Shown one piece after another: positions 21,600 through 63,799 of a DNA stretch of 64,000 nucleotides (position 1 is the first letter of the stretch; each line of letters opens with the position of its first letter). Under the pieces are notes generated by a model that had not been told where the DNA came from, made no database searches, and saw only the letters and a list, made by a program, of their open reading frames with translations. Both the position numbers and the translations under genes were made by a program. Origin of the DNA: Ignavibacteria bacterium (lineage in GTDB: Bacteria; Bacteroidota; Ignavibacteria; Ignavibacteriales; Melioribacteraceae); contig WPAE01000001.1 of the NCBI GenBank assembly GCA_009773205.1, forward strand, positions 32,775 to 96,774. Direction: 5' to 3'.

Positions 21600-21673
21600 G
21601 CACCCGTAGCTCAATTGGATAGAGCATTTGACTACGGATCAGAAGGTTTGGGGTTCGAATCCCTACGGGTGTA
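21600..21673 (+). tRNA. tRNA-Arg(ACG)
   Basis: A full cloverleaf is present: acceptor GCACCCG/CGGGTGT, D-arm GCTCAATTGGATAGAGC, anticodon stem TTTGA/TCAGA with loop CTACGGA (anticodon ACG), T-arm TGGGG-TTCGAAT-CCCTA, and discriminator A. The first acceptor pair is G-U. A34 is the substrate of the adjacent TadA. CCA is not encoded. Confidence 0.93.
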
Positions 21674-21681
21674 CTTAGAAA

Positions 21682-29599: not shown

Positions 29600-29635
29600 G
29601 TATTTGAGGCCGGGAATAATTACAAGAGGTTGGAA

Positions 29636-37070: not shown

Positions 37071-38264
37071 ATGAAATCAAGTATCAAATTATTAATAGCC
37101 GTTAATGTATTAGCGATTGCCCTATTGGGATGCAGCGGTAAAGAAGAACCTAAAAAGGAAGAAAGCCATAATGAACACAGTGAAGTTGTAAAACTATCGG
37201 CTGAATCAATAAAGCAAATAAAATTGGAAACCGAGACAGTATCATTACAACCATTCACTGGTTATTTAACAATTCCGGCAAAGGTAATAACTAATCAAGA
37301 TAATGAAGCACAGATAGGTTCGCTTGTTCAAGGAAGAGTTCACCAGGTGTTTGTGAAAGTAGGAGATTTTGTTAAAGCCGGACAAGTATTGATGACGGTT
37401 GAAGGTCTTGACGTTGGTGAAATAAAAGCCGGTTTCTTAATTGCAAAAGCGGCACTTGATTATGCAAAAGCAAATTATGAAAGACAGAAGAAATTATTTG
37501 ATGAGAAAATAGGATCGCAAAAATCATTACTAGAAAGCCAGGCTGAATTTGAAAAGGCGCTTGCTGAATACAAAGCAGAGGATAAAAAAATTCATTCGGT
37601 TGGTCTTAGTGATGAAGATGTAACCGACGCAAAGATTAGCGAAGAACATATTTCCGGCACATTGCCAATTAAATCATCCATCAACGGTATAGTAGTAGAA
37701 AGAAATGTTGTTATAGGACAATTAGTTGATGCCACAACAAATGCTTTCAAAGTAATTAACACATCTACTGTTTGGGTTGACGGACAGATATACGAAAAAG
37801 ATATAACGAAGATAAACCAGAAAACAAATGCATTTTTCACCTCATCAACTTATATGAATGAGAAGTTTAACGGAAGAATAATATATATAGGGCAGACGGT
37901 TGACGAGCAAACAAGAACAATTACAATACGGGGAGAGTTTGAAAATTCTAATAGCAAATTAAAACCGCAAATGTTTGGCGAACTAAAAATTCCTGTGAGC
38001 GGGAATGCAAAAGCAATTATGATTCCGGAAGAAGCAGTTGTTAAAGAAGCCGGGCAAGAATATGTGTTTGTCCAAAAAAGCAAGACAACCCCACCAAGCA
38101 GCGGGCAAGAATTTGAAAAGAGAATAGTGATTACCGGATTATCTGTTGATAACCGGATTGAAATTAAAGAAGGATTGAAAGAGGGTGAAAAAGTTGCATC
38201 GAAAGGAGTGTTTTATCTAAAGAGTGAACTAAAGAAAGAAGAATTGGAAGGAGATGAACACTAA
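37071..38264 (+). CDS. RND periplasmic adaptor 1 (CusB/CzcB type)
   Basis: 397-aa lipoprotein (lipobox LLGCSGK). The His/Glu-rich stretch ESHNEHSE near residue 35 could bind metal. Then come the barrel-sandwich hybrid (VQGRVHQVFVKVGDFVKAGQ), the alpha-hairpin (ALDYAKANYERQKKLFDEK) and beta-barrel domains. It joins the RND pump to TolC. It lies 1 bp after TolC 1 and overlaps the pump gene by one base. Confidence 0.9.
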   Translation: MKSSIKLLIAVNVLAIALLGCSGKEEPKKEESHNEHSEVVKLSAESIKQIKLETETVSLQPFTGYLTIPAKVITNQDNEAQIGSLVQGRVHQVFVKVGDFVKAGQVLMTVEGLDVGEIKAGFLIAKAALDYAKANYERQKKLFDEKIGSQKSLLESQAEFEKALAEYKAEDKKIHSVGLSDEDVTDAKISEEHISGTLPIKSSINGIVVERNVVIGQLVDATTNAFKVINTSTVWVDGQIYEKDITKINQKTNAFFTSSTYMNEKFNGRIIYIGQTVDEQTRTITIRGEFENSNSKLKPQMFGELKIPVSGNAKAIMIPEEAVVKEAGQEYVFVQKSKTTPPSSGQEFEKRIVITGLSVDNRIEIKEGLKEGEKVASKGVFYLKSELKKEELEGDEH

Positions 38265-41200
38265 TGTTAGAAAAAATTATATCTATGACTCTGAAGCAGA
38301 AAGGAATGATAATATTTCTTTCGTTTCTAATTGTTGGGCTTGGAATTTATGCTTACACGAAAATTCCAATTGATGCTTTCCCGGATGTAACAAACATACA
38401 AGTAGAAATTATAAGCCACGCGGATGGACTCTCTGCGATAGAAATAGAAAGAAACGTAACCTATCCGATAGAAATGGCAATGCGGGGATTGCCGGATGTT
38501 GAACAAATGCGTTCGGTAACAAAATTCGGGCTTTCAATTGTTACAATAGTCTTTAAGGATAATGTTGATATATACTTTGCCAGGCAGCTTGTCTTTGAAC
38601 GGCTTGGAGAAGCCCGAGAAAACGTACCTAAAGGTGTTGAAGTTGCAATGGGACCAATAGCAACTGCAATGGGAGAAATTTACCAATACACACTTGAAGG
38701 AAAAATGCCTTCTGATTCACTTGGAAAGATGGCTTATCTAACAGATTTAAGAACTTTGCAAGAATGGGTAATTACGCCGCAACTGAAAAGTGTTGCCGGA
38801 GTAAACGAAATAAATTCATTCGGCGGATACTTTAAGCAATTTCAAGTATTGATTAATCCGGAAAAATTATTAAAGTATGCCATAACAGCTGATGAAGTAT
38901 TTGCAGCCATTGAGAATAACAATAAGAATGTGGGTGGAAATATACTTGAAAGAAATTCAGATCAGTTCATAGTGCGTGGAGTAGGTTTAATAAAAGAGCT
39001 AAGTGATATTGATAATATTGTATTAAAATCTGTTGGCGGAACGCCTACTTTTATACGTGATGTTGCGCAAGTTAAAATTGGGGAAGCTGTTCGAATGGGC
39101 GCTTCGATGAAGAATGGTGTTGATGAATCAGTCGGTGGAATTGCAATGATGCTTCGTGGCGAGAACAGCCGCGAGGTTGTAGAAAGAGTAAAAGCTAAAG
39201 TTGATGAAATTAATGAAAACAATATTTTGCCCGATGGGATTAAAATAGTTCCTTACTACGACCGAACGGAAATTGTTGATGCAAGCATTTGGACTATAAT
39301 ACGCGCACTGCTGGAAGGTTCAATTCTTGTATTAGTAGTTACTTTTCTACTTCTAAAAAGCTTCAGAGGTTCAGCCGTAATATTGATAGCATTACCTATT
39401 TCTCTTCTACTAACTTTTGTGTTTATGAAGTTGTTGGGAATAAGCGCAAATCTTATGTCTATTGGCGGATTGGTAATTTCAACGGGTATGAAATTCGATG
39501 CATCAATTATCCAGGTGGAAAATGTGCAGAGAATGCTGAATGAGGAGAAAGGAAAGTTTAATAAACTATCCTTGATTTTAAAAGCAATACTCGACGTTAG
39601 AAAACCGAGTATATATGGTGAAATAATAATTGCAATTACATTTATACCGATTCTTGCATTAGAAGGTATAGAAGGTAAAATGTTTGCGCCATTGGCTATC
39701 ACCGTTGGATTAGCAATTATAGCAACATTGTTAATGTCCATTTTTATTATTCCACAACTTTGCGCTATATTCTTAAAGCCCCAAGTAGAAAAAGAGAGTG
39801 CAATAATGAGATTCTTTTCTACAAAATATCTCCCTCTTTTACGTTTTAGTATGAAAAGGAAAAAATTATTACTAGTAACAGCCTTAGTTGGATTGCTCGG
39901 TTCGCTTGTATTATTAAAAAATATTGGAACAGAATTTATTCCCATTATGGATGAAGGTGCATTTGATATGGATGTTGCATTGCTGCCGGGAGTTTCATTA
40001 TCCAAGTCAATGGAAATAAATAAAATTGTCGGAGAGAAGTTAAAGGAATTTGATGAGCTTGATGTTGTAGTATCCAGAACCGGACAAACCGGCGTGGCAT
40101 TAGATACGCGAGGCGTTGATAAAACCGGTTACGTAGGTGTATTGAAACCAAAAAGCGAGTGGACGCGGGATATAACAAGAGAAGAACTTACAAATGAAAT
40201 GAGAGAATCTCTTGAAACGATACCGGGAATAGCATTTGGATTTAGTCAGCCCATTCAGTGCCGTATAGATGAAATAGTTGCCGGAACAAGAGCACAATTA
40301 ATTCTAAAATTATTTGGTGAAGATATTGAACTGATGAAACGAAAAGCTGATGAGATAACTAAAGTTCTATCTAAAATTGAAGGCGGGACAGATTTAATTG
40401 CTGAGAAAGTTTCCGGACAACCTTATTTAACTATTAATGTTGACCGCTCCAAGATAGCGCGGTATGGATTAAACATAAGCGATGTTCAAAATGTTATCGA
40501 AATTGCAATTGCCGGTAAAGCGGCATCTAAGTTTTACGAAGAAAACAGAAACTTTGATATAACTGTAAGACTGCCGGAAGAAAAAAGGAACTCGATAGAG
40601 ACGATTGAGAATATTTTGGTTCCTACAAAGACGGGAACGAATATTCCACTTGCTCAATTAGCAGAAATAAAAATGATTGAAGGACCCGTCCAGATAAGCA
40701 GGCAGGATGGAATTAGAAGAATCGGAATTGAGATGAATATAAGTGGAAGAGATATAGGAAGCTTTGTAGCTGAAGCAAAACAAAAAATAAAAGAGAATGT
40801 TCAGCTACCGGCTGGTTATTATTTAACGTGGGGCGGACAGTTTGAAAACCAGCAAAGAGCAATGAACAAACTTATGATCATTGGACCATTAGCAATTGGA
40901 TTAATTCTACTTTTACTATTTGTCACTTTCAAATCTGTAAGACTAGCTTTGCTGGTAATATCAAATTTACCATTTGCATTGATTGGCGGTATTATAGCAC
41001 TTTATATCTCCGGTTTATACTTATCGGTTCCAGCTTCGGTAGGGTTTATTGTGTTATTTGGTGTAGCAGTTCTAAATGGAGTTGTTTTGGTTTCTCATAT
41101 ATCTCAATTACGAGAGGATGGCTTGGAACTGAATGAGGCAATTGAAAGAGGAAGTATGGATAGATTGCGCCCGGTTTTAATGACTGCATTTATAACAATA

Positions 41201-41368
41201 TTTAGTTTGGTGCCAACAATCATTACTACCGGAACTGGTTCGGAAGTGCAAAAGCCATTAGCTGTTGTAGTTGTAGGCGGCTTGATAACATCTACATTAT
41301 TAACCTTATTGATAATTCCTTCTGTTTATAGTTGGTTTGAAAAGAGAGAAACAGAAAGAGAAATGTAA
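38264..41368 (+). CDS. Heavy-metal efflux RND pump 1 (CusA/CzcA family)
   Basis: 1034 aa, twelve predicted transmembrane helices, and the HME-RND start PIDAFPDVTNIQVEI. The TM4 relay reads KFDASIIQVEN with one Asp and one Glu, as in CusA, rather than the DFG...D of CzcA. The porter segment reads RIDEIVAGTRAQ, lacking the Met of the CusA-type MLSTG, so substrate could be divalent cations. Proton-driven periplasmic export is expected. Operon partners are TolC 1 and adaptor 1. Confidence 0.88.
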   Translation: MLEKIISMTLKQKGMIIFLSFLIVGLGIYAYTKIPIDAFPDVTNIQVEIISHADGLSAIEIERNVTYPIEMAMRGLPDVEQMRSVTKFGLSIVTIVFKDNVDIYFARQLVFERLGEARENVPKGVEVAMGPIATAMGEIYQYTLEGKMPSDSLGKMAYLTDLRTLQEWVITPQLKSVAGVNEINSFGGYFKQFQVLINPEKLLKYAITADEVFAAIENNNKNVGGNILERNSDQFIVRGVGLIKELSDIDNIVLKSVGGTPTFIRDVAQVKIGEAVRMGASMKNGVDESVGGIAMMLRGENSREVVERVKAKVDEINENNILPDGIKIVPYYDRTEIVDASIWTIIRALLEGSILVLVVTFLLLKSFRGSAVILIALPISLLLTFVFMKLLGISANLMSIGGLVISTGMKFDASIIQVENVQRMLNEEKGKFNKLSLILKAILDVRKPSIYGEIIIAITFIPILALEGIEGKMFAPLAITVGLAIIATLLMSIFIIPQLCAIFLKPQVEKESAIMRFFSTKYLPLLRFSMKRKKLLLVTALVGLLGSLVLLKNIGTEFIPIMDEGAFDMDVALLPGVSLSKSMEINKIVGEKLKEFDELDVVVSRTGQTGVALDTRGVDKTGYVGVLKPKSEWTRDITREELTNEMRESLETIPGIAFGFSQPIQCRIDEIVAGTRAQLILKLFGEDIELMKRKADEITKVLSKIEGGTDLIAEKVSGQPYLTINVDRSKIARYGLNISDVQNVIEIAIAGKAASKFYEENRNFDITVRLPEEKRNSIETIENILVPTKTGTNIPLAQLAEIKMIEGPVQISRQDGIRRIGIEMNISGRDIGSFVAEAKQKIKENVQLPAGYYLTWGGQFENQQRAMNKLMIIGPLAIGLILLLLFVTFKSVRLALLVISNLPFALIGGIIALYISGLYLSVPASVGFIVLFGVAVLNGVVLVSHISQLREDGLELNEAIERGSMDRLRPVLMTAFITIFSLVPTIITTGTGSEVQKPLAVVVVGGLITSTLLTLLIIPSVYSWFEKRETEREM

Positions 41369-41652: not shown

Positions 41653-41994
41653 ATGAAAGAGATAAAAGCAATAATAAGACCGTTCAGACTGCTCGATGTA
41701 ATTAATGAGCTTCAAAAAATTGAAGGGCTTCCGGGGGTAACCATATCAGAAATAAAAGGATTTGGGAAAAGCAGAGCCAAGAATGCAAAGGATAAAATTA
41801 CTTATGAACTTGTAGAATTTATTCCCAGAATAAAATTAGAAGTTGTGGTTGTTGATGAAATGGCGGATGAAGTTGTTAATGTAATACAAAAATACTCCCA
41901 TACGGGGAATACGGGTGACGGGAAAATATTTGTTGTTAACGTTGAGAATGTTGTAAAGATAAGAACGAATGAAAGAGGAAAAGCAGCAGTGTAA
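41653..41994 (+). CDS. P-II family protein with shortened T-loop
   Basis: 113 aa, clearly P-II (GlnB-like): KAIIRPFRLLDVINEL, EIKGFGKSR, KLEVVVVDE, TGNTGDGKIFVVNVENVVKIRT. The T-loop is shortened: the segment with the uridylylated Tyr (YRGAEY) is missing and reads SRAKNAKDKITYEL. It may therefore sense a metabolite or metal state rather than nitrogen through GlnD. The position after an RND pump suggests a metal-linked P-II. Confidence 0.85.
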   Translation: MKEIKAIIRPFRLLDVINELQKIEGLPGVTISEIKGFGKSRAKNAKDKITYELVEFIPRIKLEVVVVDEMADEVVNVIQKYSHTGNTGDGKIFVVNVENVVKIRTNERGKAAV

Positions 41995-42040
41995 TAAGCA
42001 TTTAGAAATAATAATAATGTTAATTAAGAGGAGAAATAAG

Positions 42041-42532
42041 ATGAAACATATTAACTACAAAATACCGAAAATGTTTTTTGTAATGATATTTATTTCTGTT
42101 TTTATAACCGGATGTATTCAACCAATTAATCTTGGTTTGATCAAGATTGGTCAAAACAGCACAGTGCAAGAATTTTATGTTGATAACTACAAAATGAAAG
42201 TGCGTGTAATGCCAATAACGGATGATTATCAATATATATGTTCATTGTCATTGAGTGATAAAGATAATTCAACACCAATTAAAGATGTGAAATCAAACAT
42301 GGATATTAAAAAATATTCCAGCCGTTCAACGCCGCGCGGCGGAATACAACGAGTTAAACAGATGATAATAAATGACATTGAACCTATTAAGGACTCGGTT
42401 TCAAATGATTTCGAGTATATGTATAAATTAAGGAACAAAGGTAAATATGAACTTACTATTAAACTGACCGAAATTAATGGGAAAGAATTAGAAAAAGAAA
42501 TTCTTATTTCATTTGACCAGGAAGTGAAGTGA
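42041..42532 (+). CDS. Hypothetical lipoprotein A (tandem paralog)
   Basis: 163 aa from ATG 42041, which has AGAGGAGA 6 bp upstream; the open frame begins earlier at 41969 but without a ribosome site. A lipobox ITGCIQP lies near residue 23. The domain VQEFYVDNYKMKVRV ... GKYELTIKLTEINGKELEKE ends ILISFDQEVK. It is paired with the similar 42661-43134 gene. No known family. Confidence 0.7.
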   Translation: MKHINYKIPKMFFVMIFISVFITGCIQPINLGLIKIGQNSTVQEFYVDNYKMKVRVMPITDDYQYICSLSLSDKDNSTPIKDVKSNMDIKKYSSRSTPRGGIQRVKQMIINDIEPIKDSVSNDFEYMYKLRNKGKYELTIKLTEINGKELEKEILISFDQEVK

Positions 42533-42660: not shown

Positions 42661-43134
42661 ATGAAACGAATTAATATCAGAATACCGAAAATATTCTTCG
42701 CAATAATATTCTTATCATTTTTGATAACAGGATGTAATCCATTGATTATTATTGAGGCAGGCAAAAACAGCGCAGTGCAGGAATTTTATGTTGATGATTA
42801 TAAAATGCAAGTCCGGATTTCACTTATATCGGATGAGAACGATTATCTTTGTTCATTCTCACTTTTTGATAAAGATGACATAAAACCGTTAGAAGGCATA
42901 AAATCTTATTTGGATATAATAAAGTATGGTCCACGCCGACATAGATACACGCGAGAAAAGTTTCCCTATATGAACGGATTGGATGTAATTTATAACAAAA
43001 TAACAAATGAATACGAGTGTAAATATAAATTTACAAGCAAGAGTAGATATGAATTGACGATAAGATTAAATGAAATTGCCGGTAAAGCATTAGAGGAAGA
43101 AATTCTTATTTCATTTGACCAGGAAGCGAAGTGA
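42661..43134 (+). CDS. Hypothetical lipoprotein B (tandem paralog)
   Basis: 157 aa with lipobox ITGCNPL. It is clearly homologous to the 42041 gene over its whole length: VQEFYVDDYKM, RYELTIRLNEIAGKAL, ILISFDQEAK. The middle (residues 80-115) differs and contains a PRRHRYTREKFPY loop. Tandem duplication with divergence is the simplest reading. An envelope-anchored binding role is inferred. Confidence 0.7.
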   Translation: MKRINIRIPKIFFAIIFLSFLITGCNPLIIIEAGKNSAVQEFYVDDYKMQVRISLISDENDYLCSFSLFDKDDIKPLEGIKSYLDIIKYGPRRHRYTREKFPYMNGLDVIYNKITNEYECKYKFTSKSRYELTIRLNEIAGKALEEEILISFDQEAK

Positions 43135-45824: not shown

Positions 45825-47912
45825 ATGAAAAAATATCAACTAAAAAATATTGACTGCGCTTCGTGTGCAGCAAAAATTGAAGACGGGCTTTCGAAGATGG
45901 AGGGAGTGAAATCATGCTCGGTAAATTTTGCAAGCTCTTCTCTATTCATCGATACAGACAACATAGAATCTGTGAAAAAGAAAATAAAAGAGATCGAACC
46001 GGAAGTTATTGTTGAAGAGATGCAAGATAAAAAACTAACAGAGTCAAAAAATATAGTTGATGAAAACAAAGTAGAATTAATCAAAATCTTTCTGACGGTT
46101 CTTCTGCTAGCTGTTGGATTAATCTTTGAGAAAGAAATCCAAAATTCGCAATATCGCATGACTGAGTATTTGGTATTCATTCCAGCATATTTAATTAGTG
46201 GTTGGGGTGTATTAAGAGGTGCATTACGAAGCATTACTAGAGGGAAAATTTTTAATGAACATATCCTTATGACGATTGCAACCGCCGGTGCGATTGCAAT
46301 TGATGCGATGCCGGAAGCTGTAACAGTAATGTTGTTCTATGTTGTTGGGGAGTTATTCCAGGATATAGCTGTTAACCGTTCGCGTAAATCGATTAAAGCA
46401 TTGTTAGAAATAAAACCGGACTACGCCAATCTAAAAAGCAACGGTGAAGTAAAACGAGTTTCTCCGGAAGGCGTAAGAGTCGGAGAGAATATTATTGTAA
46501 AAGCCGGAGAAAAAATTCCTTTGGATGGAGAAATTACTGAAGGTAATTCCTTTGTAGATACGTCCGCATTAACCGGCGAAAGTGTTCCAAGAAAAGTGAA
46601 AGAAAAGGATTTTGTCTTAGCAGGAATGATAAATCAATCCGGACTGCTGACTATTAGAGTTACAAAAATATTTAGTGAATCATCCATCTCACAAATTCTG
46701 GAACTAGTTGAAAATGCAGCTTCAAAAAAAGCAGAGACAGAAAAGTTTATAACAACATTTGCGAAATATTACACTCCAGTTGTTGTGATTGGCGCTTTAC
46801 TTCTTGCAGTTATTCCGCCTTTGCTTTTTGCCAACCAAACTTTTACAGATTGGATTTACAGAGCGCTGGTAGTTCTTGTAATATCTTGTCCATGCGCTTT
46901 GGTAATAAGCATTCCACTTGGATACTTTGGTGGAATAGGCGGAGCTTCAAAAAGAGGTATCTTGGTCAAAGGTTCAAACTATTTGGATGCTCTCACAAAA
47001 GTTAAGACTGTAGTTTTTGATAAAACAGGAACGCTAACAAAAGGAGAATTTAAGGTATCTGAAATTGTTGTGAAAAACGGATTTGACAAAGAAGAATTAA
47101 TAAGACTTGCTGCCTATGCAGAATCGCATTCAAATCATCCGATAGCGAAATCTGTAATTGAAGCATACGGAGGAGCGATTAATCAAGAATTGATTAAGGA
47201 CGTTCACGAGATAAGCGGTAAAGGAATAAAAGCAAATATTAACGGGCAAATAGTCGTTGTTGGAAATGATAAACTTCTTCATTTGGAAAATATACAACAC
47301 GATAAATGTGATGTCGAGGGAACAGTTATTCATATCGCTACAAATTCAGTTTACGCCGGATACATTATTATTTCCGATACATTAAAAGAGGGCGCGGAAG
47401 AAACAATAAGCTTGCTTAAAAAGAAAAATATTAATTCGGTTATGCTTACGGGAGATAATAAAGCGGCGGCAGAATCTTTTGCCAAGAAACTTGGAATAGA
47501 TAAGTATTATTATGAACTGCTGCCGGAAGATAAAGTAAATCATATTGAGCAGATTATTCAATCATCAATTAAAGGAAATAAAGTTGCTTTCGTCGGGGAT
47601 GGTATAAACGATGCACCGGTTTTAGCACGCGCAGATGTTGGAATAGCAATGGGCGCTCTCGGTTCAGATGCCGCCGTTGAAACTGCTGATGTTGTTCTTA
47701 TGGCAGATTCTCCTTTGCAAGTTGTAACCGCAATTGATACAGCAAAGAAAACCAGAAAGATTGTCTGGCAAAATATTGGCTTCGCAATGGGAGTTAAATT
47801 ATTCTTCATTCTTCTGGGTGTGTTTGGAATTGCTACAATGTGGGAAGCGGTCTTTGGCGATATGGGTGTTGCAATAATCGCAATATTGAATGCGATGAGA
47901 GTGATGAAGTAA
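45825..47912 (+). CDS. P1B-type heavy-metal ATPase
   Basis: 695 aa. N-terminal HMA domain with IDCASC (CxxC), eight transmembrane segments, ion motif CPC (SCPCALVISIP, residue ~355), phosphorylation Asp in DKTGTLTKG near residue 400, HP motif SHSNHP, and GDGINDAPVLARADVGIAMG. The CPC motif with a following SIPLG is typical of the Zn/Cd/Pb ZntA group. The protein exports metal from the cytoplasm. Confidence 0.93.
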   Translation: MKKYQLKNIDCASCAAKIEDGLSKMEGVKSCSVNFASSSLFIDTDNIESVKKKIKEIEPEVIVEEMQDKKLTESKNIVDENKVELIKIFLTVLLLAVGLIFEKEIQNSQYRMTEYLVFIPAYLISGWGVLRGALRSITRGKIFNEHILMTIATAGAIAIDAMPEAVTVMLFYVVGELFQDIAVNRSRKSIKALLEIKPDYANLKSNGEVKRVSPEGVRVGENIIVKAGEKIPLDGEITEGNSFVDTSALTGESVPRKVKEKDFVLAGMINQSGLLTIRVTKIFSESSISQILELVENAASKKAETEKFITTFAKYYTPVVVIGALLLAVIPPLLFANQTFTDWIYRALVVLVISCPCALVISIPLGYFGGIGGASKRGILVKGSNYLDALTKVKTVVFDKTGTLTKGEFKVSEIVVKNGFDKEELIRLAAYAESHSNHPIAKSVIEAYGGAINQELIKDVHEISGKGIKANINGQIVVVGNDKLLHLENIQHDKCDVEGTVIHIATNSVYAGYIIISDTLKEGAEETISLLKKKNINSVMLTGDNKAAAESFAKKLGIDKYYYELLPEDKVNHIEQIIQSSIKGNKVAFVGDGINDAPVLARADVGIAMGALGSDAAVETADVVLMADSPLQVVTAIDTAKKTRKIVWQNIGFAMGVKLFFILLGVFGIATMWEAVFGDMGVAIIAILNAMRVMK

Positions 47913-49060: not shown

Positions 49061-49086
49061 AGGAGACGGAAATACTCCCATCTCCT
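49061..49086. terminator. Bidirectional terminator at the convergent point
   Basis: AGGAGA 49061-49066 pairs with TCTCCT 49081-49086, with A-rich flanks on one side and AAAATT on the other. It lies between the ICMT stop and the repeat-protein stop. Confidence 0.55.
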
Positions 49087-49106: not shown

Positions 49107-49511
49107 TTATTGATGGCGTTTTTGTCTTAGAAAAAGATTTTGCTCAATTGCCGGTTTACTATTTTCTGATATTTTATTTGAATTTTGGAAGACTACAGCA
49201 CCGTGACGTTTTTCAATTAAGAATGGATTTCTATCAGCTATCAGATTGTTTGCAACCGGGTTAATATTTGACTGACGATTTACAACCGTGATTGCACCAT
49301 GACGTTTTTCAACAAGAAAAGGATTTCTGTCGTAAACCTCATCACTTGGATTCATGCTTAAATTATAGTTTACAATAACAACTGCTCCGTGACGTTTTTC
49401 TACAAGGAAGGGATTCTTTTCGGCATAAGTATTTCCAGTTGGCTGGGCGTTGATTAAAGATAAAGTTGATAATACAATTACTACTATTGTTATAACTATT
49501 GACTTTTTCAT
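49107..49511 (-). CDS. Secreted protein of four NPFLVEKRHGAV repeats
   Basis: 134 aa from the ATG at 49511 (AAGGA site upstream). Signal peptide residues 1-22 ends LSLINA. The mature protein is three near-perfect units, (K/R)NPFL(V/I)EKRHGAVxxxN, at residues 32-48, 62-78 and 94-110, plus a worn fourth (QNLFLRQKRHQ) at 124-134. They are spaced 30-32 residues apart by variable linkers. Each unit has a KRH dibasic site. No family is recognised. It lies last in the copper-type cluster, under a sigma-54-like promoter. It could be a metal-binding or processed peptide. Confidence 0.65.
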   Translation of the reverse strand: MKKSIVITIVVIVLSTLSLINAQPTGNTYAEKNPFLVEKRHGAVVIVNYNLSMNPSDEVYDRNPFLVEKRHGAITVVNRQSNINPVANNLIADRNPFLIEKRHGAVVFQNSNKISENSKPAIEQNLFLRQKRHQ

Positions 49512-49545: not shown

Positions 49546-49627
49546 GACAAAACCAATGCCATATTTTTCTTTTGAAATTAGAGTGAAAGTGAATACGAAT
49601 AGTTAAATGGATTAAAGAATCTTAAAA
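49546..49627 (-). promoter_or_regulatory. Sigma-54-like promoter and upstream site of the repeat-protein gene
   Basis: On the minus strand TGGCATTGGTTTTGTC (49561-49546) fits the -24/-12 pattern TGGC-N8-TTGY except for the last base pair. ATTAAAGAATCTTAAAA is at 49611-49627, 50 bp further upstream. The predicted start of transcription leaves about 25 nt before the ATG at 49511. Confidence 0.5.
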
Positions 49628-49693
49628 TAATTTTAAGAAATTTTATAAATAACAACTAATCGTTCCGCACTCATTTCAATAAAAGAAGGAATG

Positions 49694-51442
49694 TTATTTA
49701 AGAAACAATAATTTCTTTGTTGATACAAATTGACCGGCTTTTAATTGATAGAAATAAACACCGGTAGACATTCCTCGACTCCGCTCGGAATGACCGATAT
49801 TAAATTTTACACTATAATTGCCGGGTTGTTTAAATTCATCAACAAGTGTTGCAACTTCTTTCCCCAAAAAATCGAATACTTTCAGAGTTACATGACCAGC
49901 AATTGATAAATGAAATCCAATTACAGTTTCAGGATTGAATGGATTAGGATAATTCTGATCAAGCGAAAAATTAATTGGCAACAAAGATAAATTCTCTTCT
50001 CTAACATCTGTAGGACTTGAAACTAGAAATTGCCCCATCATTCCATCATCTTCGTGAGTAAGCAAATGACAATGATACATAAAAGGAACAGTTGAGTTAG
50101 CAAAGTCTTCAAATTTTGTAATGAATCTTACGGTTTCCATCGGCTCAACTAAAACAACATCTTTTCTTCCGCGTTCGTTAAGCGGCACTTGATTGCCATT
50201 TCTATCAAGCAAATAAAATTGAACATCGTGAATATGAAAAGGGTGCGCGATTAATGTTTGATTTCTGAGCTCCCATATTTCAGTATTATTCAATGGAATG
50301 GTGTAATTGATTTTATCCATTGAGAAAGGATTCCCATTAATTACAAAAGGACCCGCAGCACTCATCATACCACCGATTGATGTAAATGTTAATACACGGG
50401 TAACATTAGCAGATGAAATAGAGATTGGAGAGTTAGAAATTAAAGTTGAGAGAATTGTAGTAATTGGATTTTGTGATGCAGCAATTACATCAATTTTTAG
50501 GATATTGAAATTAGCGCCGTTTAATTTATTGTTTGAATAATCGGGCAAGCTACCGCCCATACCAACAGAACTTGAGCCGATAATTCCGGTTGGTAATTCA
50601 GAAGCAAAACTCATAAGATAAGTTGATTGCCCTAGCAAAGATTTAAAATCAACCAATATTTCAGCGCGTTCACCAGGAGCCAAACGAAGGCGTGTTAATA
50701 GAACCGGTGCGTTTAGCAAACCACCGTCGCCAGTAATTTGATAGAAAGAATTATTTTCCGTAAAACCAAAATTATAAGTTCTTTCTGTAGAGCCGTTAAG
50801 TAAGCGAAGACGAACAATTTGAGCCGGAACTTGCAAGTAAGGATTTTTTGTGCCGTTAACGAGAAGAACAGAATCGAGTTCCGAGCGCACAATAAATTGT
50901 TTAGCTAAATCGAAAGCTCTAGATTGAACAACAATTGGGAAATCATCAACACCATATTTGCGGGGAAGTTTTAGCGCGGCTTCTTGTTCATCTCTAACAA
51001 TGATAAATCCGGCTACACCTTTTGTTACATGTTCAGCAGTTTTTTTATGCAAGTGAGGGTGATACCAATAAGTAGCGGCGTTATCCAAAACAGTAAATTG
51101 CGGCTGCCATGTTGTGCCGGGTAAAATTACAGTATGAGGGCCACCATCATTTTGAGGAGCAACGTGCATTCCATGCCAATGAATTGTAGTTGTATCTGTT
51201 AAATTGTTCTTCACATTCATTTGAACTTGTGTCCCTTTTTTGAGAAGTAAAGTAGGGCCAAGTAAACTGCCATTGACACCCATAGTTCTCGTTTGAAATC
51301 CGGGATAAAAATTAACAGAACTGTTTTGTATTGTGAGATTGAAGTTGTTCCCACTTAATGTATCCGGAATAGGCAGTTTATTTTGAGCGTTAATGAGTTG
51401 AAAAAACAAAAAGAAATAAATGGATATATATTTTTTGAACAT
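49694..51442 (-). CDS. Secreted multicopper oxidase with T9SS sorting domain
   Basis: 582 aa, signal peptide ISIYFFLFFQLINAQ. Copper-ligand motifs: HWHGMH (88-93), YWYHPHLHKK (125-134), HPFHIHD and YHCHLLTHEDDGMM (T1/T2/T3 sites). It is a laccase/CueO-like oxidase, likely Cu(I) detoxification. The last 90 residues are a T9SS type A sorting domain (QNYPNPFNPETVI ... FDFLGKEVATLVD ... YFYQLKAG). Residues IGHSERSRGMST in that domain are coded by a palindromic repeat. Export by SprA-type T9SS is expected. Confidence 0.9.
   Translation of the reverse strand: MFKKYISIYFFLFFQLINAQNKLPIPDTLSGNNFNLTIQNSSVNFYPGFQTRTMGVNGSLLGPTLLLKKGTQVQMNVKNNLTDTTTIHWHGMHVAPQNDGGPHTVILPGTTWQPQFTVLDNAATYWYHPHLHKKTAEHVTKGVAGFIIVRDEQEAALKLPRKYGVDDFPIVVQSRAFDLAKQFIVRSELDSVLLVNGTKNPYLQVPAQIVRLRLLNGSTERTYNFGFTENNSFYQITGDGGLLNAPVLLTRLRLAPGERAEILVDFKSLLGQSTYLMSFASELPTGIIGSSSVGMGGSLPDYSNNKLNGANFNILKIDVIAASQNPITTILSTLISNSPISISSANVTRVLTFTSIGGMMSAAGPFVINGNPFSMDKINYTIPLNNTEIWELRNQTLIAHPFHIHDVQFYLLDRNGNQVPLNERGRKDVVLVEPMETVRFITKFEDFANSTVPFMYHCHLLTHEDDGMMGQFLVSSPTDVREENLSLLPINFSLDQNYPNPFNPETVIGFHLSIAGHVTLKVFDFLGKEVATLVDEFKQPGNYSVKFNIGHSERSRGMSTGVYFYQLKAGQFVSTKKLLFLK
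49769..49792 (-). repeat. In-frame palindromic repeat inside the sorting domain
   Basis: CATTCC 49769-49774 and GGAATG 49787-49792 enclose TCGACTCCGCTC. It belongs to the TCATTCCGAGCGGAGTCGAGGAATG class of dispersed repeats, read here as GHSERSRGMS. Confidence 0.75.
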
Positions 51443-51450
51443 AGTAGCTC

Positions 51451-52506
51451 TTAAAGAAGTTGATTGTTCTTAGTCAAAAAATTAAGTGAATCACCATTTG
51501 AAAACAGTGCAACTTTTTGACCGGTCATTTCAATACGTTTAATGACACAATCGAAGCAATCATCGGCTAAATCATTAACACATGGTCTATCTTCATACAG
51601 CAAATAATCCTTTCTATATTGTGTTAAAGTAACATTGGGCATAACAACATTAGCTCCAGCGTTAATTCCTTTTTCACGTCCGAAAGGATTCAAAGCTTGC
51701 AATGCTGTTGTTGCAGCAATATTTATTTTTGGAAGAGAGATTCGAGTTGCAGCAATCATTTTGAGTGATAATTCAAGTAATTGTGAAGGTGAATTTGCGA
51801 TATCAACTGGCTGTCCAAATAAAGGAGTTTGAGAGTGTTCAAAAAAGGGACCCATACCAATCATATCAATATCCATATTCTTAAAGAAAAGTATGTCATT
51901 CACCAAATCATCAATTGTTTGGAAAGGAAGTCCTATCATTACACCGGTGCCTAGTTGGTAACCAATTTCTTTTAATGCCGAAAGACAATTAACGCGATTA
52001 CTATAACTGTGCTCAGTTGGATGAATTTTATTGTATAAGGATTCATTTGAAGTTTCTATGCGAAGTAAATAACGATGTGCGCCAGAATTAAACCAGCGTT
52101 TGTAAGTTTCAGTAGTTTGTTCTCCAAGAGAAAGAGTAATTCTTAACTGCCGAGATGTTAAGTAATTAATCTCCTCAATAATGTTTTCGATAAAAGCGAT
52201 AAAGTTTTCATCGTCTCTTTCACCGGACTGAAGAACGATTGAGCCAAAACCTTTTTCGAATGCAAACATAGCTGAAGTAATAATTTCATCTTTTGTCATT
52301 AAGTATCTATTAACTGAGCGGTTAGATTTTCTAATGCCGCAGTAAAAGCAATCTTTAGTGCAGATATTACTTAACTCAATTAAACCGCGCAGATAAACAT
52401 CATGACCAAGCGTAGTTTGTTTAACAGCTTTGGCTTCCTTAAATATCCTTTTGATTTCAGAAGAATCTACTTCCAGAAGGATATTTTTAATTTTGGTAGA
52501 ATTCAT
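51451..52506 (-). CDS. hydE: HydE-like radical SAM enzyme
   Basis: 351 aa. Radical SAM cluster Cys49, Cys53, Cys56 (CTKDCFYCG). It has HydE-type segments ELSNICTKDCFYCGIRKSN, IVLQSGE, LSLGEQT, TGVMIGLPFQT, PFFEHSQTPL and ALNPFGREKGINAGANVVMPN. HydE helps build the H-cluster of [FeFe] hydrogenase with HydF and HydG, none of which is here. It is 9 bp from the multicopper oxidase and 9 bp from the kinase, so it is in the metal operon. Another role (HydE/PylB relative) is possible. Confidence 0.8.
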   Translation of the reverse strand: MNSTKIKNILLEVDSSEIKRIFKEAKAVKQTTLGHDVYLRGLIELSNICTKDCFYCGIRKSNRSVNRYLMTKDEIITSAMFAFEKGFGSIVLQSGERDDENFIAFIENIIEEINYLTSRQLRITLSLGEQTTETYKRWFNSGAHRYLLRIETSNESLYNKIHPTEHSYSNRVNCLSALKEIGYQLGTGVMIGLPFQTIDDLVNDILFFKNMDIDMIGMGPFFEHSQTPLFGQPVDIANSPSQLLELSLKMIAATRISLPKINIAATTALQALNPFGREKGINAGANVVMPNVTLTQYRKDYLLYEDRPCVNDLADDCFDCVIKRIEMTGQKVALFSNGDSLNFLTKNNQLL

Positions 52507-52515
52507 TTTGGAATA

Positions 52516-53877
52516 TTATTTGGGATGATTTTTATAGGGTGAAGATGGAAATGAAAGTGTGAAGGATGAACCTTGCCCTTTTTCACTTAACACTGAAATT
52601 TTAGCATTATTTTTCTCACAATATTTTTTTACCAGGAATAAACCAAGACCGTTGCCGTCATATTTTCTGGTTGTGCTACTATCTTCTTGCGAAAATATGT
52701 TAAACATTTTGTGCGAATATGCTTCTGATATTCCAATTCCAGTATCTTTAATACTGATCTCAAATTCATTGTTCGTATTCTCATAAGCAGAAAATACTAC
52801 TTTGCCTTCTTCTGTGAATTTAATTGCATTATCTAAAAGATGCGTAAGAATTTGTTTTATTGAATATTCATCCGCATAAACTTTTTTATTAAAAGAAATG
52901 TTATGGGAAAGAGAAATTCCTTTTTCTTTTGCAATCGGCTCAAAGTCTTTGAGAATGCCGGGAAGTATATCGTTACTAATATCAATATTGTTGTATTCAT
53001 ATTTGGTCAGATCGGATATTTCAAGAGCGGTGTTTAGAATTAAATCAATAGTCCGGATTAGGCGGTTCAAACCATTTTTAACAGAATTAATATACCCATC
53101 AAGTTCTTTAGAAAGAGTTTCTCCATATTCCTCCTTAATAATATTAGTGAAACCAAATACCACATTAATTGGCGTTCTTATTTCATGAGAAACCATGCTA
53201 AGGAATTCACTTTTAATATTATCTGCCTCTTTTATTTTGTCATTTGCTATGAGCAGTTTTAATTCCGCTTCTTTTCTTTTTGTTATATCAGTAATTGTTA
53301 AAATTCTTCCGACATTTATGTTATTCTCATCATATATCTTTGAAGCCGATACAAGAGAATAGATATCGTTTCCTTTGTTAACTTTCCAAACAAGTTCTGA
53401 TTTTGAGTTGTTCTCGTTATTCTCTATAATTCTTACAAGATTTTCTGAATTAGTTTTGTCCAATAAACTTGCTAGATCGATATCAATTAACTCTTCTTTC
53501 TGCAAATTGATCATATCTGCAAAGCATTGATTGACATAAGTTATTTTACCTTCAATATTTTGCACAATCAAACCTTCGTTCATGCTATCAACCAGATCGC
53601 GGAATTTTCTTTCATTTGCTAAAAGTTGTAATTGTGTTTTTTCTCTAACACTTATTTGTTTTAACAGCGGCTTAAACACAAGGAAATAAAGCAATGGAAA
53701 TAAGAACGCAGTTAGAATTATCGAATCAATCAATAAGTCTGTCAAAGCCATTGGATAATGTGTATTGCCGGTTGTTGTCATCACAATAACGTGGGAAACA
53801 AATATCGAAATGCTGACCAGCAGAAGGATCAGAATTGGCGATATAGTGATATCTTTAATTACTCTTTCTTTTATCAC
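52516..53877 (-). CDS. PAS-domain sensor histidine kinase
   Basis: 453 aa. Two N-terminal transmembrane helices without a large periplasmic domain, then PAS (RDLVDSMNEGLIVQNIEGKI) and PAC, HisKA with VSHEIRTPINV, and HATPase with NAIKFTEEGKV, DTGIGIS and GNGLGLFLV. It probably senses a cytoplasmic or membrane signal. Its partner may be the regulator whose end lies at 63810-64000. It ends 9 bp before hydE. Confidence 0.85.
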   Translation of the reverse strand: MIKERVIKDITISPILILLLVSISIFVSHVIVMTTTGNTHYPMALTDLLIDSIILTAFLFPLLYFLVFKPLLKQISVREKTQLQLLANERKFRDLVDSMNEGLIVQNIEGKITYVNQCFADMINLQKEELIDIDLASLLDKTNSENLVRIIENNENNSKSELVWKVNKGNDIYSLVSASKIYDENNINVGRILTITDITKRKEAELKLLIANDKIKEADNIKSEFLSMVSHEIRTPINVVFGFTNIIKEEYGETLSKELDGYINSVKNGLNRLIRTIDLILNTALEISDLTKYEYNNIDISNDILPGILKDFEPIAKEKGISLSHNISFNKKVYADEYSIKQILTHLLDNAIKFTEEGKVVFSAYENTNNEFEISIKDTGIGISEAYSHKMFNIFSQEDSSTTRKYDGNGLGLFLVKKYCEKNNAKISVLSEKGQGSSFTLSFPSSPYKNHPK

Positions 53878-54334: not shown

Positions 54335-54925
54335 TTAATGAGCAATTACACCGCCCAAGAAAGCAGCGGCAAGAATTAATATGAAAGCGATTAGTCCAAC
54401 AAGCCAAGAATATTTTTTTAGTTTATCAACAAACAGAAAGATAGTCCAGATAAAAAAGTTAATAATGAGAGCAAGCCCAATGTTCTGGTGTAATTCGACA
54501 ATCCATTCTTTTGCGGTTCCGATAAAAGGTTCAGATTGATTTTTTCCGGTAATAAATGCTACGATAGAAAAAAGAAACGCAACAAGAACTGAAATCAAAA
54601 TCGCTGAATCGAAATTCTTCCATTTGAAGTTTAGCAATGAAAGAAAAAAAGCAAACAGACCAAGTGCGATTGGAAAGTGAACCACTTTATTGTGCATGTG
54701 TTCAAATAATTGTTCTGATGGATTTAACCTCATCGGTTTTTCTTTTATCAATTCCGGTTCATTTTTTTGTTTATATATTTTTTTTGAAATACCGTTAATC
54801 GCAATAGTATCTTTACCGACTATTGTTAATGTATCTACCTTAACTGTTTTTTCTTTTTTGTGATCTTTGCCTCCGTGAGGAAATGCGACGGTGGCAAGTA
54901 ACAATAGACAAATAAATGTTTTCAT
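54335..54925 (-). CDS. DUF2231 membrane protein
   Basis: 196 aa. Signal-like N-terminus, His-rich FPHGGKDHKK, then four helices of the DUF2231 type: HNKVVHFPIALGLFAFFLSL, then WIVELHQNIGLALI, and a Gly-His end (LGGVIAH). Several conserved His residues suggest haem or metal. The role is unknown; members are common near copper and electron-transfer genes. Confidence 0.75.
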   Translation of the reverse strand: MKTFICLLLLATVAFPHGGKDHKKEKTVKVDTLTIVGKDTIAINGISKKIYKQKNEPELIKEKPMRLNPSEQLFEHMHNKVVHFPIALGLFAFFLSLLNFKWKNFDSAILISVLVAFLFSIVAFITGKNQSEPFIGTAKEWIVELHQNIGLALIINFFIWTIFLFVDKLKKYSWLVGLIAFILILAAAFLGGVIAH

Positions 54926-55190: not shown

Positions 55191-56006
55191 TTAGAGTTTA
55201 ATTCTTACACCAATGCTTGTTGTATAATCCGGCATAAGATCGCCCAATCCGGCAGAACCAATGAATGAAAGAATAAGATTCTCACTTATGCGATAATTTG
55301 CACCAAAGGATATTTGCTGTGGTGCATTATAGTCATCCAATATTTTTGTATAGCCGCTGTAATATAAGAGGAGCGAATATTCACCATAATTAAAAAACTT
55401 ACCAATGCCAATTCCATATGTAAAAGGATTTTTATAAGTAATTCCATCCGGATCGCCGATGTCAAGATAGCCAAGATCAACAACGCCGATAAAACTACCA
55501 AAACTTTTACGTGCAGAAATTGATCCGCCGTAATCCATTTGGCCGGTTCCAAAATTAAGCATTGATGAAGCGGTAGGTATTTTCACTTGAGCGTTTAGAT
55601 AAACTTCCAAATCATTCTCAAAGTCTGAGTAAATTTCATAATCAAAGTATCCGTATAAATCACCTATACCAAAATTCATATTATTCTGTGTAGTTGTAGA
55701 TGATGTGTTATTTGTCCCGGAAGGAACCATCATTCCATTGGGTTGGCTTACGCTATTTCCGTTATTATTTACAAATGGAATTGAGGCAGTAATTCCAAAA
55801 CCATCTCCTTGGTAACGAATGCTTCCATATACCGAAAATATTCGGGAATAGGAATCTGATAGAAATTGTCCTCCGCTTAACTGAACACTTGAGCTTAAAT
55901 ACCATCCGGTTTGAGAATAGATATTTGCAGTGAACAAAAGAGAGATAAAAAGGAAACCAGCAAAAGCCGGTTTCCTAAAATTCATTTTATGAATTATGCT
56001 TTTCAT
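55191..56006 (-). CDS. Outer-membrane transporter-like protein
   Basis: 271 aa with signal peptide (AGFLFISLLFTANIYSQ). The rest is beta-strand-rich with alternating aromatic and polar residues and ends in TTSIGVRIKL, a barrel-like C-terminus. It overlaps the Met-rich gene stop by 4 bp (ATGA). Probably an outer-membrane channel or sensor for metal. No firm family assigned. Confidence 0.65.
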   Translation of the reverse strand: MKSIIHKMNFRKPAFAGFLFISLLFTANIYSQTGWYLSSSVQLSGGQFLSDSYSRIFSVYGSIRYQGDGFGITASIPFVNNNGNSVSQPNGMMVPSGTNNTSSTTTQNNMNFGIGDLYGYFDYEIYSDFENDLEVYLNAQVKIPTASSMLNFGTGQMDYGGSISARKSFGSFIGVVDLGYLDIGDPDGITYKNPFTYGIGIGKFFNYGEYSLLLYYSGYTKILDDYNAPQQISFGANYRISENLILSFIGSAGLGDLMPDYTTSIGVRIKL

Positions 56007-56506
56007 TTACCATTACCTTTTTGTTGAATGCTTTCCATATTGTTCAGCATGCCTTTGTATTCCTTCATCATAGTTTTCATATTGTCCATCATACCATTCA
56101 TATGATCTTTCATCTCTTCACCGTTCATCATGTTTTTATCGCCCATCATTTTATTCATTTGATCAAGAAGACCTTGCATATCTTTGCCCATCTGGCTCAT
56201 GCCTTGCATCATATTCATCATTCCGTTATTCATGTTCATTTGTCCCATATCATGATTTTGCATCTGGTTATTCATCATGTTCATCATTTGATTACTTTTG
56301 TCCATCATTTGACCCATTTGAGTCATCATTCCTTGCATGTTTTGCATCATAGAGCCCATTTGATTCTGTTGATTTTGCATCATTGTATTGCCGGTATTTC
56401 CACCGCCATGATGCTGATCGTGCTGGGCGGAAATAATTCCCGTGAACATTATTAACATTGCCGCGCTTAATAAAAAGCGCATTCGATTTGAGTTTATTAC
56501 TTTCAT
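56003..56506 (-). CDS. Methionine-rich periplasmic copper-binding protein
   Basis: 167 aa from the ATG at 56506 (TAGGAGA ribosome site). Signal peptide followed by HDQHHGGG, then a stretch with dozens of Met residues in MxxM and MxxMM patterns with Asn/Gln, such as MMTQMGQMMDKSNQMMNMM. Met clusters bind Cu(I) or Ag(I), so it fits a periplasmic copper sink. The His-rich frame on the other strand is an artefact of ATG codons reading as CAT. Confidence 0.7.
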   Translation of the reverse strand: MKVINSNRMRFLLSAAMLIMFTGIISAQHDQHHGGGNTGNTMMQNQQNQMGSMMQNMQGMMTQMGQMMDKSNQMMNMMNNQMQNHDMGQMNMNNGMMNMMQGMSQMGKDMQGLLDQMNKMMGDKNMMNGEEMKDHMNGMMDNMKTMMKEYKGMLNNMESIQQKGNGK

Positions 56507-56587
56507 TGTGGTTCTCCTATATTTTATTATTAATTGCACCATTATTAGAAAATGGTGAGTAGTAAAAATGCTCAACCATTTACTCCA

Positions 56588-60194: not shown

Positions 60195-63100
60195 TTATTC
60201 TCCCTCCTTCATCCAATCAGCCATTTTGGATAATTCTAATGTTCCTTTTTTAAGTGCGTGCTCTTTCATCATTGTAAAAAGAACCGGAGTAACAACAAGC
60301 ACGTGAATAGCGCTTGTGAGCAAGCCGCCGATCATTGGAGCCGTAAGCGGTTTCATAACATCCGAACCAGTTCCAGTTGACCACATTATAGGAATTAGTC
60401 CAACCATTGCAGTAAATACCGTCATCAACTTTGGTCTAAGTCTTAACACAGAACCTTCTACTGTCGCCTCATAAATATCTTCGTTTGTTATTGGTCCGCG
60501 CAATCCTTTTTGATGAGCACGTAATTTTTTATCCAGCGCTTCATGCAGATATACAACCATGATAACACCAGTCTCAGTTGCTATACCATACAAAGCAATG
60601 AACCCAACCCAAACGGCAACTGAGAAATTATAACCGAGAATGAAGATCATATACATTCCACCGATGAGCGCGAAAGGAACGGAAAGCATTACAACTCCGG
60701 CCTCCACATAATCTTTGAGTGTAAAGAAGAGTAGGAAAAAGATTACTAAGAAAACTACCGGCATAATGATTTCAAGAGTTTGCTGTGCACGAACTTTACT
60801 TTCATACTGACCGCTCCATGTATAGGAGTAACCGGCTGGAAGTTTTAATCCATCAGCAATAACTTTTTTAGCGTCAACCATAACGCTTCCCATATCACGT
60901 CCGCGAGTGTTCATAAAAACTATAGAACGAAGCATTCCGTTTTCACTGCTTATCATTGGGGGGCCGGTAACTAAATTAATATCTGCTAGTTCTGCAAGTG
61001 GCAAATAAGTAACGGCATTTTGATTTGTGCTTGTGAGTGAAAAATCATTTTGTGATGATGGACTTTGCGGAACAATGCTTGCTTGATTTGAACTTCCCAT
61101 TGACGAAGACATTCCACCGGAATTACCCGTGTTAGTTCCACCACCCATAGAGCTAGATGACGTTTGTGCAGCCATAGGATTTGATAACGCAACCGGAACA
61201 ATTAGACTTTTCAATTCTTCTATATTATCACGGTAATCTTTTTGATAACGCATTCTGATTGGGAAACGCATTCTCCCATCAATTACGATTCCAAGATTTT
61301 GTCCGCCGATTGCTGTTTCAATAATATCTTGAAGATCGCGGATGTTTACACCATAGCGTGCAGCAATTCCGCGCTTAATGTTTATATCAAGATAGTAACC
61401 GTTTTGAACTCTTTCAGCAACAACATCTGCCGCGCCATTTACTTTCTTTAATAAATTTTCTGCTCTGATTGCGTATGTTTCTAACGTATCGAGATTAGGG
61501 CCAAAGATTTTAAATCCTATATCAGTTCTTACACCGGTAGAAAGCATATTGATTCTGTTGATGATTGGTTGAGTCCAACCGTTACGCACACCGGGTATTT
61601 GCAATTTTGAATCGAGCTCGGCAACAATATCTTGCTTTGTAATTCCAGGACGCCACTCACTTTTGGGTTTCAAGAGAATAATTGTTTCGATCATGCTTAA
61701 CGGTGCATTGTCTGTTGCGGTTTCCGCACGTCCAGTTTTCCCTAAAACGTGATGAACTTCGGGAACAGATTTTATAATTTTATCTTGTTCTTGTAGAATT
61801 CTGTTTACTTCGGTAATGGATGCACCGGGTAATGTTACGGGCATATATAAAATTGATCCTTCATCAAGCGGAGGCATAAACTCACTGCCGGTATAATAAA
61901 CCATTGGAACTGCGATTAATAGAGCGATCACATTTAATGCTATTGTAATTTTTCTGTGCTTAAGAACCCAGTGGATAACCGGTTCATACAATCTAATGAA
62001 AAATCTTGTAGTTGGGTTTTTATCTTCCGGTTTGAATTTACCGCGCATTAACATTGTCATCAAAACTGGAATTAGTGAAATAACTACAATTGCTGAACCT
62101 ATCATTGCAAATGATTTTGTGTATGCAAGAGGATGAAACATTTTGCCTTCTTGACCGGTAAGTAAAAATACCGGCAGGAAAGAAGTGAGAATTATCAATT
62201 CAGAAAAGAATATTGCTCTGCCAACTTGTTTTGCAGAATCAATAGAAATCTTTTTGTATTCATCCGGTGTTAAATGTTGTTTCTCTTCCAATGCCTTCGC
62301 AAGATTACGGTAAGCATTTTCCACCAGCACAATTGAGGAGTCTACTATTACTCCAACAGCAAGAATAATTCCACCAAGAGACATAATATTTGATGAGATT
62401 CCAAATAAATACATTAGAATAAATGCAATGAGAATTGAAATAGGAAGCTCGATAAGAATTCTTACAATGCTTCTAAAGTGAAGAAGGAAAATCATAACCA
62501 TAATTGAAACGGTGATTGACGCTTCAATTAATGCACGTTCCAAAGTTCCGACAGCTTCTTTAATTAATGTGCTGCGGTCGTAAGAAGTTACAATCTCAAC
62601 TCCAGGTGGAAGACCGGGAGATATTTCTTTTATCTTTTCTTTTACTTTGTCAATAACTCTTTGAGCATTCTCACCGGTTCGCATAACTATAATTCCACCA
62701 ACAGCTTGACCTTCACCGTTCTTTTCTAAAGCACCACGTCTTATATCGCCGCCTAATGCTACAGTTGCTACATTTTTAATGAGAATTGGAATTCCATTGG
62801 TGGAAGTTTTTATCACTGTATTTTCAACATCACCTTTCGATTGTATATAACCTTGACCGCGCACAAAATATTCTGCATCGCTTACTTCCAGAATTTTGCC
62901 GCCGACTTCGTTATTGCTTCTTTGAACTGCGTTAACAACATCGGAGATAGTTAAATTGTAAGCGCGAAGATCTGTAGGGTTAACATCAACTTGATATTGT
63001 TTAACAAATCCGCCGATGCTTGCAACTTCTGCAACGCCGTCAACAGAGGAAAGCTTATAACGGATATACCAATCTTGAACTGCACGTAATGCACCGAGAT

Positions 63101-63548: not shown

Positions 63549-63700
63549 TTATTTTCTCCGTAAGGTATGTTCATTCTTCTTATTATCGTGGACTAATGAA
63601 TATAGTTGATAAACCATAAACCCAACCATTACCAAGTAAACCAAACACCAAATAAGCCGTTCCACGTTATTGTTCTTTCATTTTTATGTTTATAGAAGCC

Positions 63701-63799
63701 AACAAGCGTGCCGCCAGAAAAGCTTGTTTATTGCCTATAATTGTGGTGTCGATCTTACAATCATTAAAGAATCTTTAAATGAATTAAAGATTCTTAAAA
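63701..63799 (-). promoter_or_regulatory. Sigma-54-like promoter and upstream sites of pump 2
   Basis: On the minus strand TGGCGGCACGCTTGTT (63716-63701) has TGGC-N8-TGT as at 49561-49546. Two AT-rich palindromes lie upstream, ATTAAAGAATCTTTAAAT (63763-63780) and ATTAAAGATTCTTAAAA (63783-63799), starting 47 bp from the TGGC. The untranslated leader would be about 140 nt. No gene is seen in 63549-63809. Confidence 0.5.

Follow-up and report, generated by a model that had tools for sequence, protein, structure and literature searches.

What does a small secreted protein built from N-x-F-L-x-x-K-R-H repeats contribute to a bacterium that encodes it at the end of a copper-type gene cluster? The window (the whole stretch of DNA analysed, 64,000 nucleotides) was examined for the conservation of this protein, for the control of its gene and for the genes around it, the coordinates of which are collected in Table 1.

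Table 1. Positions of the repeat gene, its control elements and neighbouring features; coordinates are those of the window unless locus L055 is named.
Feature	Position	Strand	Remarks
Repeat-protein gene, 134 aa	49511..49107	minus	signal peptide and four motif units
Unit 1 core NPFLVEKRHGA	49383..49415	minus	residues 33-43
Unit 2 core NPFLVEKRHGA	49293..49325	minus	residues 63-73
Unit 3 core NPFLIEKRHGA	49197..49229	minus	residues 95-105
Unit 4, truncated, C-terminal, NLFLRQKRHQ-stop	49110..49139	minus	residues 125-134
Terminator-like hairpin 3' of repeat gene	49061..49086	minus	
Sigma-54 -24/-12 element of repeat gene, TGGCATTGGTTTTGT	49561..49547	minus	DNA-level conservation in the G053 homolog (47% identity)
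Enhancer dyad of repeat gene, perfect, TCTTAAAATTATTTTAAGA	49638..49620	minus	58 bp upstream of the -24 element
Enhancer dyad of cus operon, TCTTTAATTCATTTAAAGA	63772..63790	minus	matches the repeat-gene dyad
Sigma-54 element of cus operon, CGGCACGCTTGTTGG	63699..63713	minus	58-bp spacing from dyad, as at the repeat gene
CusA-type RND pump	60195..63548	minus	all three metal-site methionines, aligned to E. coli CusA
CueO-like multicopper oxidase, T9SS C-terminal tail	49694..51442	minus	immediately upstream of repeat gene
HydE-like radical SAM enzyme	51451..52506	minus	above NCBIfam cut-off
PAS histidine kinase	52516..53877	minus	a histidine-kinase gene also adjoins the G053 homolog
DUF2231-like membrane protein	54335..54925	minus	neighbour of the G053 homolog too
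Met-rich ORF	56003..56575	minus	190 aa, 45 Met, 7 His
Membrane-helix peptide frame upstream of cusA	~63665..63549	minus	GTG start
Response regulator	L055 2585..3937		just past the window
Histidine kinase of the NtrC-type pair	L055 3909..5669		
Tyrosine integrase	L055 5813..6862	minus	
tRNA-Arg	21600..21674		
Tyrosine integrase	29630..30811	plus	
Second CusA/CzcA-family pump	38264..41368	plus	no dyad promoter
Small lipoprotein-like pair	41969..42532, 42661..43134	plus	...SAVQEFYVD / STVQEFYVD
Zn/Cd-type P-ATPase	45825..47912	plus	no dyad promoter

The repeat protein and its units

Residues 1-22 have the appearance of a signal peptide (MKKSIVITIVVIVLSTLSLINA before a Q; MKK...LINA, then Q; by inspection), from which the protein would be secreted, as the first-pass annotation had proposed, either to the periplasm or outside. 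The mature protein of 112 residues is basic (pI 9.8, net charge +5) and contains 4 His, 1 Met and 0 Cys. ORF finders give a longer frame of 151 aa from 49562, but this start was rejected, as its ATG forms part of the ATGGC in the -24 element of the sigma-54 promoter, and conservation there is of DNA, not of protein.

The units begin at residues 33, 63, 95 and 125, a spacing of 30, 32 and 30, and the strong periodic design described for the protein was upheld on self-comparison, in which 11 of 12 residues were identical at a non-zero offset; 5000 shuffles gave at most 7. Three conserved units and a worn fourth were likewise recovered, the full units reading NPFL(V/I)EKRHGA and the last NLFLRQKRHQ. 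The unit is not, however, the rigid block of 17 residues first described, but a core of about 12 residues, NPFL(V/I)EKRHGA(V/I), with a hydrophobic tail, and the EKRHG proposed as common to all units holds in the three full ones, whilst the fourth reads QKRHQ. The codons for P, F, L, H and G differ among the units (CCC/CCT/CCA, TTC/TTT, CTT/TTA, CAC/CAT and GGA/GGT), and the units have therefore been kept by protein-level selection and not by recent DNA duplication.

The gene is rare, with profile searches recovering it from 3 of 164 genomes of the order and 3 of 391 genomes of the class, and in each of the three it lies within a Cu/Ag efflux neighbourhood, so that the co-occurrence with copper clusters put forward as a check was found. 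One homolog, in the BRH_c32 MAG (G008), is 96% identical and present on two contigs; the other, in a genome from another family of the same order (G053), is 47% identical, and the protein was not found in the other 161 genomes of the order, in plasmids or in viral contigs. Only two independent lineages are known, and as the scan of genome contigs for relatives was seeded mostly with non-motif peptides, relatives outside the class may be missed. Among 395 genomes of the phylum, the motif pattern matched several times in one only (G000), the single one-mismatch matches in five others being noise.

Between the window and the 47%-identical homolog, the units keep 35 of 43 residues (dN 0.12, dS 1.6), bearing out the expectation that they would be conserved in homologs, and the linkers keep 18 of 69 (dN 0.78, dS 1.7), which indicates that the motif is the functional part and that the linkers are spacers. 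Between close relatives the overall dN/dS of the gene is around 0.1; at greater distance, that of the units is 0.08. In the six full units of these two proteins N, P, F, L, K, R, H and A are invariant, as is the C-terminus F-L-x-Q-K-R-H-Q, and N, F, L, K, R and H are fixed in every unit, the C-terminal one included. That N, F, L, K and R are as strictly conserved as H suggests partner recognition, and the conservation of the motif would fit a recognition motif for a partner.

The view that the protein belongs to no known family stands, with no credible relative in Pfam, NCBIfam, PHROG or PDB, and no Pfam or NCBIfam match to the helical heavy-metal-resistance/LTxxQ domain of ZraP, Spy and CpxP. 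A bulb-type (beta-prism II) lectin, which is marked by QxDxNxVxY units, a period of around 30 residues and a recognisable profile match, was rejected, the match to gastrodianin reaching only E 1.3 with the full profile (hhalign probability 2.6%) and the unit profile giving none. Also set aside were a chance HGAVVFQN inside a large unrelated protein of a Planctomycetes locus (L020) and a KRHGA within the designed repeat of an AI-designed TIM barrel. AlphaFold models were unusable (pLDDT 34 with three sequences, 37 with one). In the single-sequence model, at its pLDDT of 37, each of the three full units is drawn as a FLVEKR-HG-AVVIVN hairpin, and Foldseek returned no match below E 3 for the repeat-protein model (best E 3.3, uninformative).

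Promoter and regulator

The repeat gene is preceded by a -24/-12 element of the GG-N10-GC type, in which the GC of the -12 reads GT, with an upstream activator site at a fixed distance; a gene close by encodes an activator that has sigma-54 AAA+ and HTH domains. The same dyad, the same 58-bp spacing and the same sigma-54 parts stand before the cus operon, so that the repeat-gene promoter is, in its sequence anatomy, a copy of the efflux-pump promoter, and the repeat protein is very probably co-induced with the Met-triad CusA pump. The DNA upstream is more conserved than the gene, with 46 of 55 positions identical across the sigma-54 element and 5' leader compared with 205 of 353 over the sequence that codes for the mature protein. 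Since a terminator-like hairpin lies just after the gene, it appears to be a second, monocistronic output of the system.

Across the 4.1-Mb genome, the exact dyad is present at these two promoters and nowhere else, a count that states rarity and is not an independent test, since the pattern was drawn from the two sites themselves. Scans allowing one mismatch fell at background level, hence the use of exact dyads or of the dyad combined with a sigma-54 element, a combination with 0 matches in 784 kb of shuffled sequence. Independent support comes from comparison among genomes. A dyad, a gap of 57-59 bp and a sigma-54 element were found at the junction between the regulator and the cus operon in nine genomes, among them G008, G001, G006, G138 and G127, the last four of which lack the repeat gene; in G015, G146 and G019 the dyad reads TGGCACTCTCTTTGC. 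At the repeat gene itself, the window, G008 and G053 all have the same dyad, a gap of 57-58 bp and a GG-N10-type element, and at the cus junction of G053 the dyad has one mismatch and no sigma-54 element was recognised by the same definition.

The response-regulator gene ends around 19 bp before the cus dyad, and its product has receiver, sigma-54 AAA+ and Fis-type HTH domains with a GAFTGA motif; the histidine kinase of the pair has HAMP, HisKA and HATPase domains. From position and spacing, the regulator probably binds the dyad, and the repeat gene would be induced by copper. Orthologs or close paralogs of the regulator are present in 56 of 160 genomes of the order, and the repeat protein is therefore an accessory added to a common module; as many genomes carry the same regulator and no repeat gene, it is also dispensable for the pump. 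Taken together, the repeat protein very probably belongs to a Cu(I)/Ag(I) efflux regulon under sigma-54 control. The copper regulon of the first-pass annotation now goes well beyond a guess, given the promoter anatomy in common with a pump having the Met triad, and the sigma-54-like promoter assigned to the gene is real by comparative evidence.

There is precedent for sigma-54 control of copper genes in the CorSR system of Myxococcus xanthus, in which copper genes, including a multicopper oxidase, are under a sigma-54 response regulator; the operon content of CorSR/curA differs, and the portion of that account available describes no comparable repeat protein (PMC3707914). Under metal or envelope stress, the sigma-54 enhancer-binding response regulator of the ZraSR system acts on very few targets, one of which, zraP, encodes a small periplasmic protein (PMC4987338). 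The system here differs in being linked to a pump for Cu/Ag, whilst ZraSR is a zinc system, and in its repeat protein having no Pfam match.

The surrounding metal-resistance region

A series of minus-strand genes runs down from the CusA-type pump (63548) and ends with the repeat gene; the series also holds outer-membrane and adaptor genes, small metal-related genes, and genes for DUF2231-like, YHS, PAS kinase, HydE-like radical SAM and multicopper oxidase proteins. The three metal-site methionines of the pump, which we take to be M573/M623/M672, support Cu(I)/Ag(I) as its substrate. The type IX secretion tail of the multicopper oxidase implies export to the cell surface or medium. The presence of a HydE-like enzyme in a copper operon has a parallel in G001, where one is also found near a DUF2231-like gene (L079). 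The Met-rich ORF of the cus operon is conserved in Cu clusters across the order, and its product is a more probable candidate for a Cu(I)/Ag(I) sponge than is the repeat protein. The tiny frame after the cus promoter encodes a peptide of around 40 aa with a single membrane helix, apparently the first product of the operon; it starts with ATG in G008 (L056), and an analogous peptide is encoded in G053 (L057).

Flanked by the tRNA-Arg and the two tyrosine integrases, the metal-resistance region resembles a mobile island. Two contigs of the BRH_c32 MAG, LOEU01000004.1 and LOEU01000042.1 (L018/L019), share 17.1 kb of the copper island at 100% identity, which may represent a recent duplication, a plasmid copy or an assembly effect. 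The P-ATPase and the second pump have the opposite orientation and no dyad promoter, and therefore probably form a separate metal regulon. The two proteins of the tandem lipoprotein-like pair are similar to each other, and the pair is conserved in BRH_c32.

Possible functions of the repeat protein

The role tentatively favoured is that of a secreted accessory protein of the sigma-54 Cu/Ag regulon, docking on an envelope partner as a multivalent adaptor or chaperone. The membrane histidine kinase and its NtrC-type response regulator would act through binding to the TCTTWAA dyad, switching on two promoters, those of the cus operon and the repeat gene. The exported protein would then present four copies of N-x-F-L-x-x-K-R-H on a flexible chain, in the periplasm or outside, and these may dock on the multicopper oxidase, a subunit of the pump, a polyanion, or a protein of the outer membrane or periplasm that has been damaged. 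In this role the repeat protein would hold the position that ZraP and SilE have in their regulons, although it is unrelated to both in sequence.

A weaker reading, considered unlikely, is a sponge akin to SilE or PcoE, a disordered periplasmic protein that would chelate Cu(II) or Ag(I) through the Glu/Asp-x-x-His of each unit and fold on binding. SilE is made from its own promoter, and the repeat gene appears to share this regulatory position, with a promoter of its own (dyad, 58 bp, sigma-54) beside a co-regulated Cu/Ag RND pump bearing the CusA Met triad; both proteins are small, secreted and built on repeated motifs, although co-regulation is judged here by sequence only. The low-confidence AlphaFold models are compatible with disorder, and E/D-K-R-H is kept in all NPFL units. 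SilE is intrinsically disordered and has repeated motifs in which the ligands are spaced i,i+3 (PMC5008109). The composition, however, does not agree, with four His, one Met, no Cys and a charge of +5 compared with the ten His and ten Met of SilE (PMC5008109). The protein lacks the MxxH/HxxM motifs, and with them the repeated His/Met motifs with roughly ten His and at least ten Met that mark SilE and PcoE; no sequence similarity to these was found, and the control here is by sigma-54 and not of the OmpR type. In addition, K and R are fixed as firmly as H, Q replaces E in the fourth unit, and the cus operon already encodes the 190-aa protein with 45 Met. The metal binding first suggested is thus doubtful, the protein being unlike a Cu(I)/Ag(I) chelator.

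Less probable still is a self-assembling beta protein, a functional amyloid or fibre in which strand-turn-strand units (FLVEKR-HG-AVVIVN) would stack to give a polymer on the cell surface, serving for protection of the cell or for holding metal. Amyloids of the FapC/CsgA type are secreted and have several imperfect repeats with N/S-rich spacers, as does the repeat protein, and the 30/32/30 spacing, the N/S-rich linkers, the beta-prone strand after each full unit core and the hairpins drawn exactly at the units would all be in keeping with this. The likeness to curli and Fap rests on strand propensity and a model too poor to compare (pLDDT 37, no Foldseek match below E 3), there is no sequence match to FapC/CsgA-type amyloids, and the charged K-R-H sits in the first strand. 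On informal inspection of the neighbourhood, no nucleator, chaperone, export or other dedicated secretion genes of the curli/Fap type were noted.

The KR of every unit and the repeated design could also suit a precursor cut at KR into short secreted peptides, serving as signals or antimicrobials, but this is very improbable. The dibasic pair noted earlier is indeed fixed in every unit, whereas its use as a processing site is unsupported: dibasic processing is not the usual route in bacteria, no processing protease or peptide exporter was noted in the cluster, N, P, F, L and H are constrained too, and the C-terminal QKRHQ-stop keeps the motif even though cleavage there would free only HQ. That the ORF is spurious or decaying, or the dyad a mere terminator of the upstream gene, has a negligible likelihood; the rarity of the gene, the dyad following a stop codon in two cases and the folding of the cus dyad as RNA (-11 kcal/mol) would fit, but the substitution pattern already refutes a spurious ORF, the dyad at the repeat gene consists of A and T only and has a weak fold (-3.8), and the distance of 57-59 bp between dyad and sigma-54 element is preserved even where the dyad lies 220 bp past the regulator stop codon.

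Across its genome, the regulator seems to command just two promoters with the exact dyad, one for the efflux pump and one for the repeat protein. It is possible that an undescribed secreted family with N-x-F-L-x-x-K-R-H repeats is a dedicated second output of a sigma-54 Cu/Ag two-component system, and that its motif is a new envelope recognition element or a metal-responsive hairpin. The pairing of the two promoters assigns a well-defined stimulus and regulator to an orphan repeat protein, whose motif offers evident residues for mutation, and this makes its role in copper and silver tolerance directly testable. Sigma-54 control of copper export would be extended to this order, with a dyad-spacing rule that can be searched for elsewhere.
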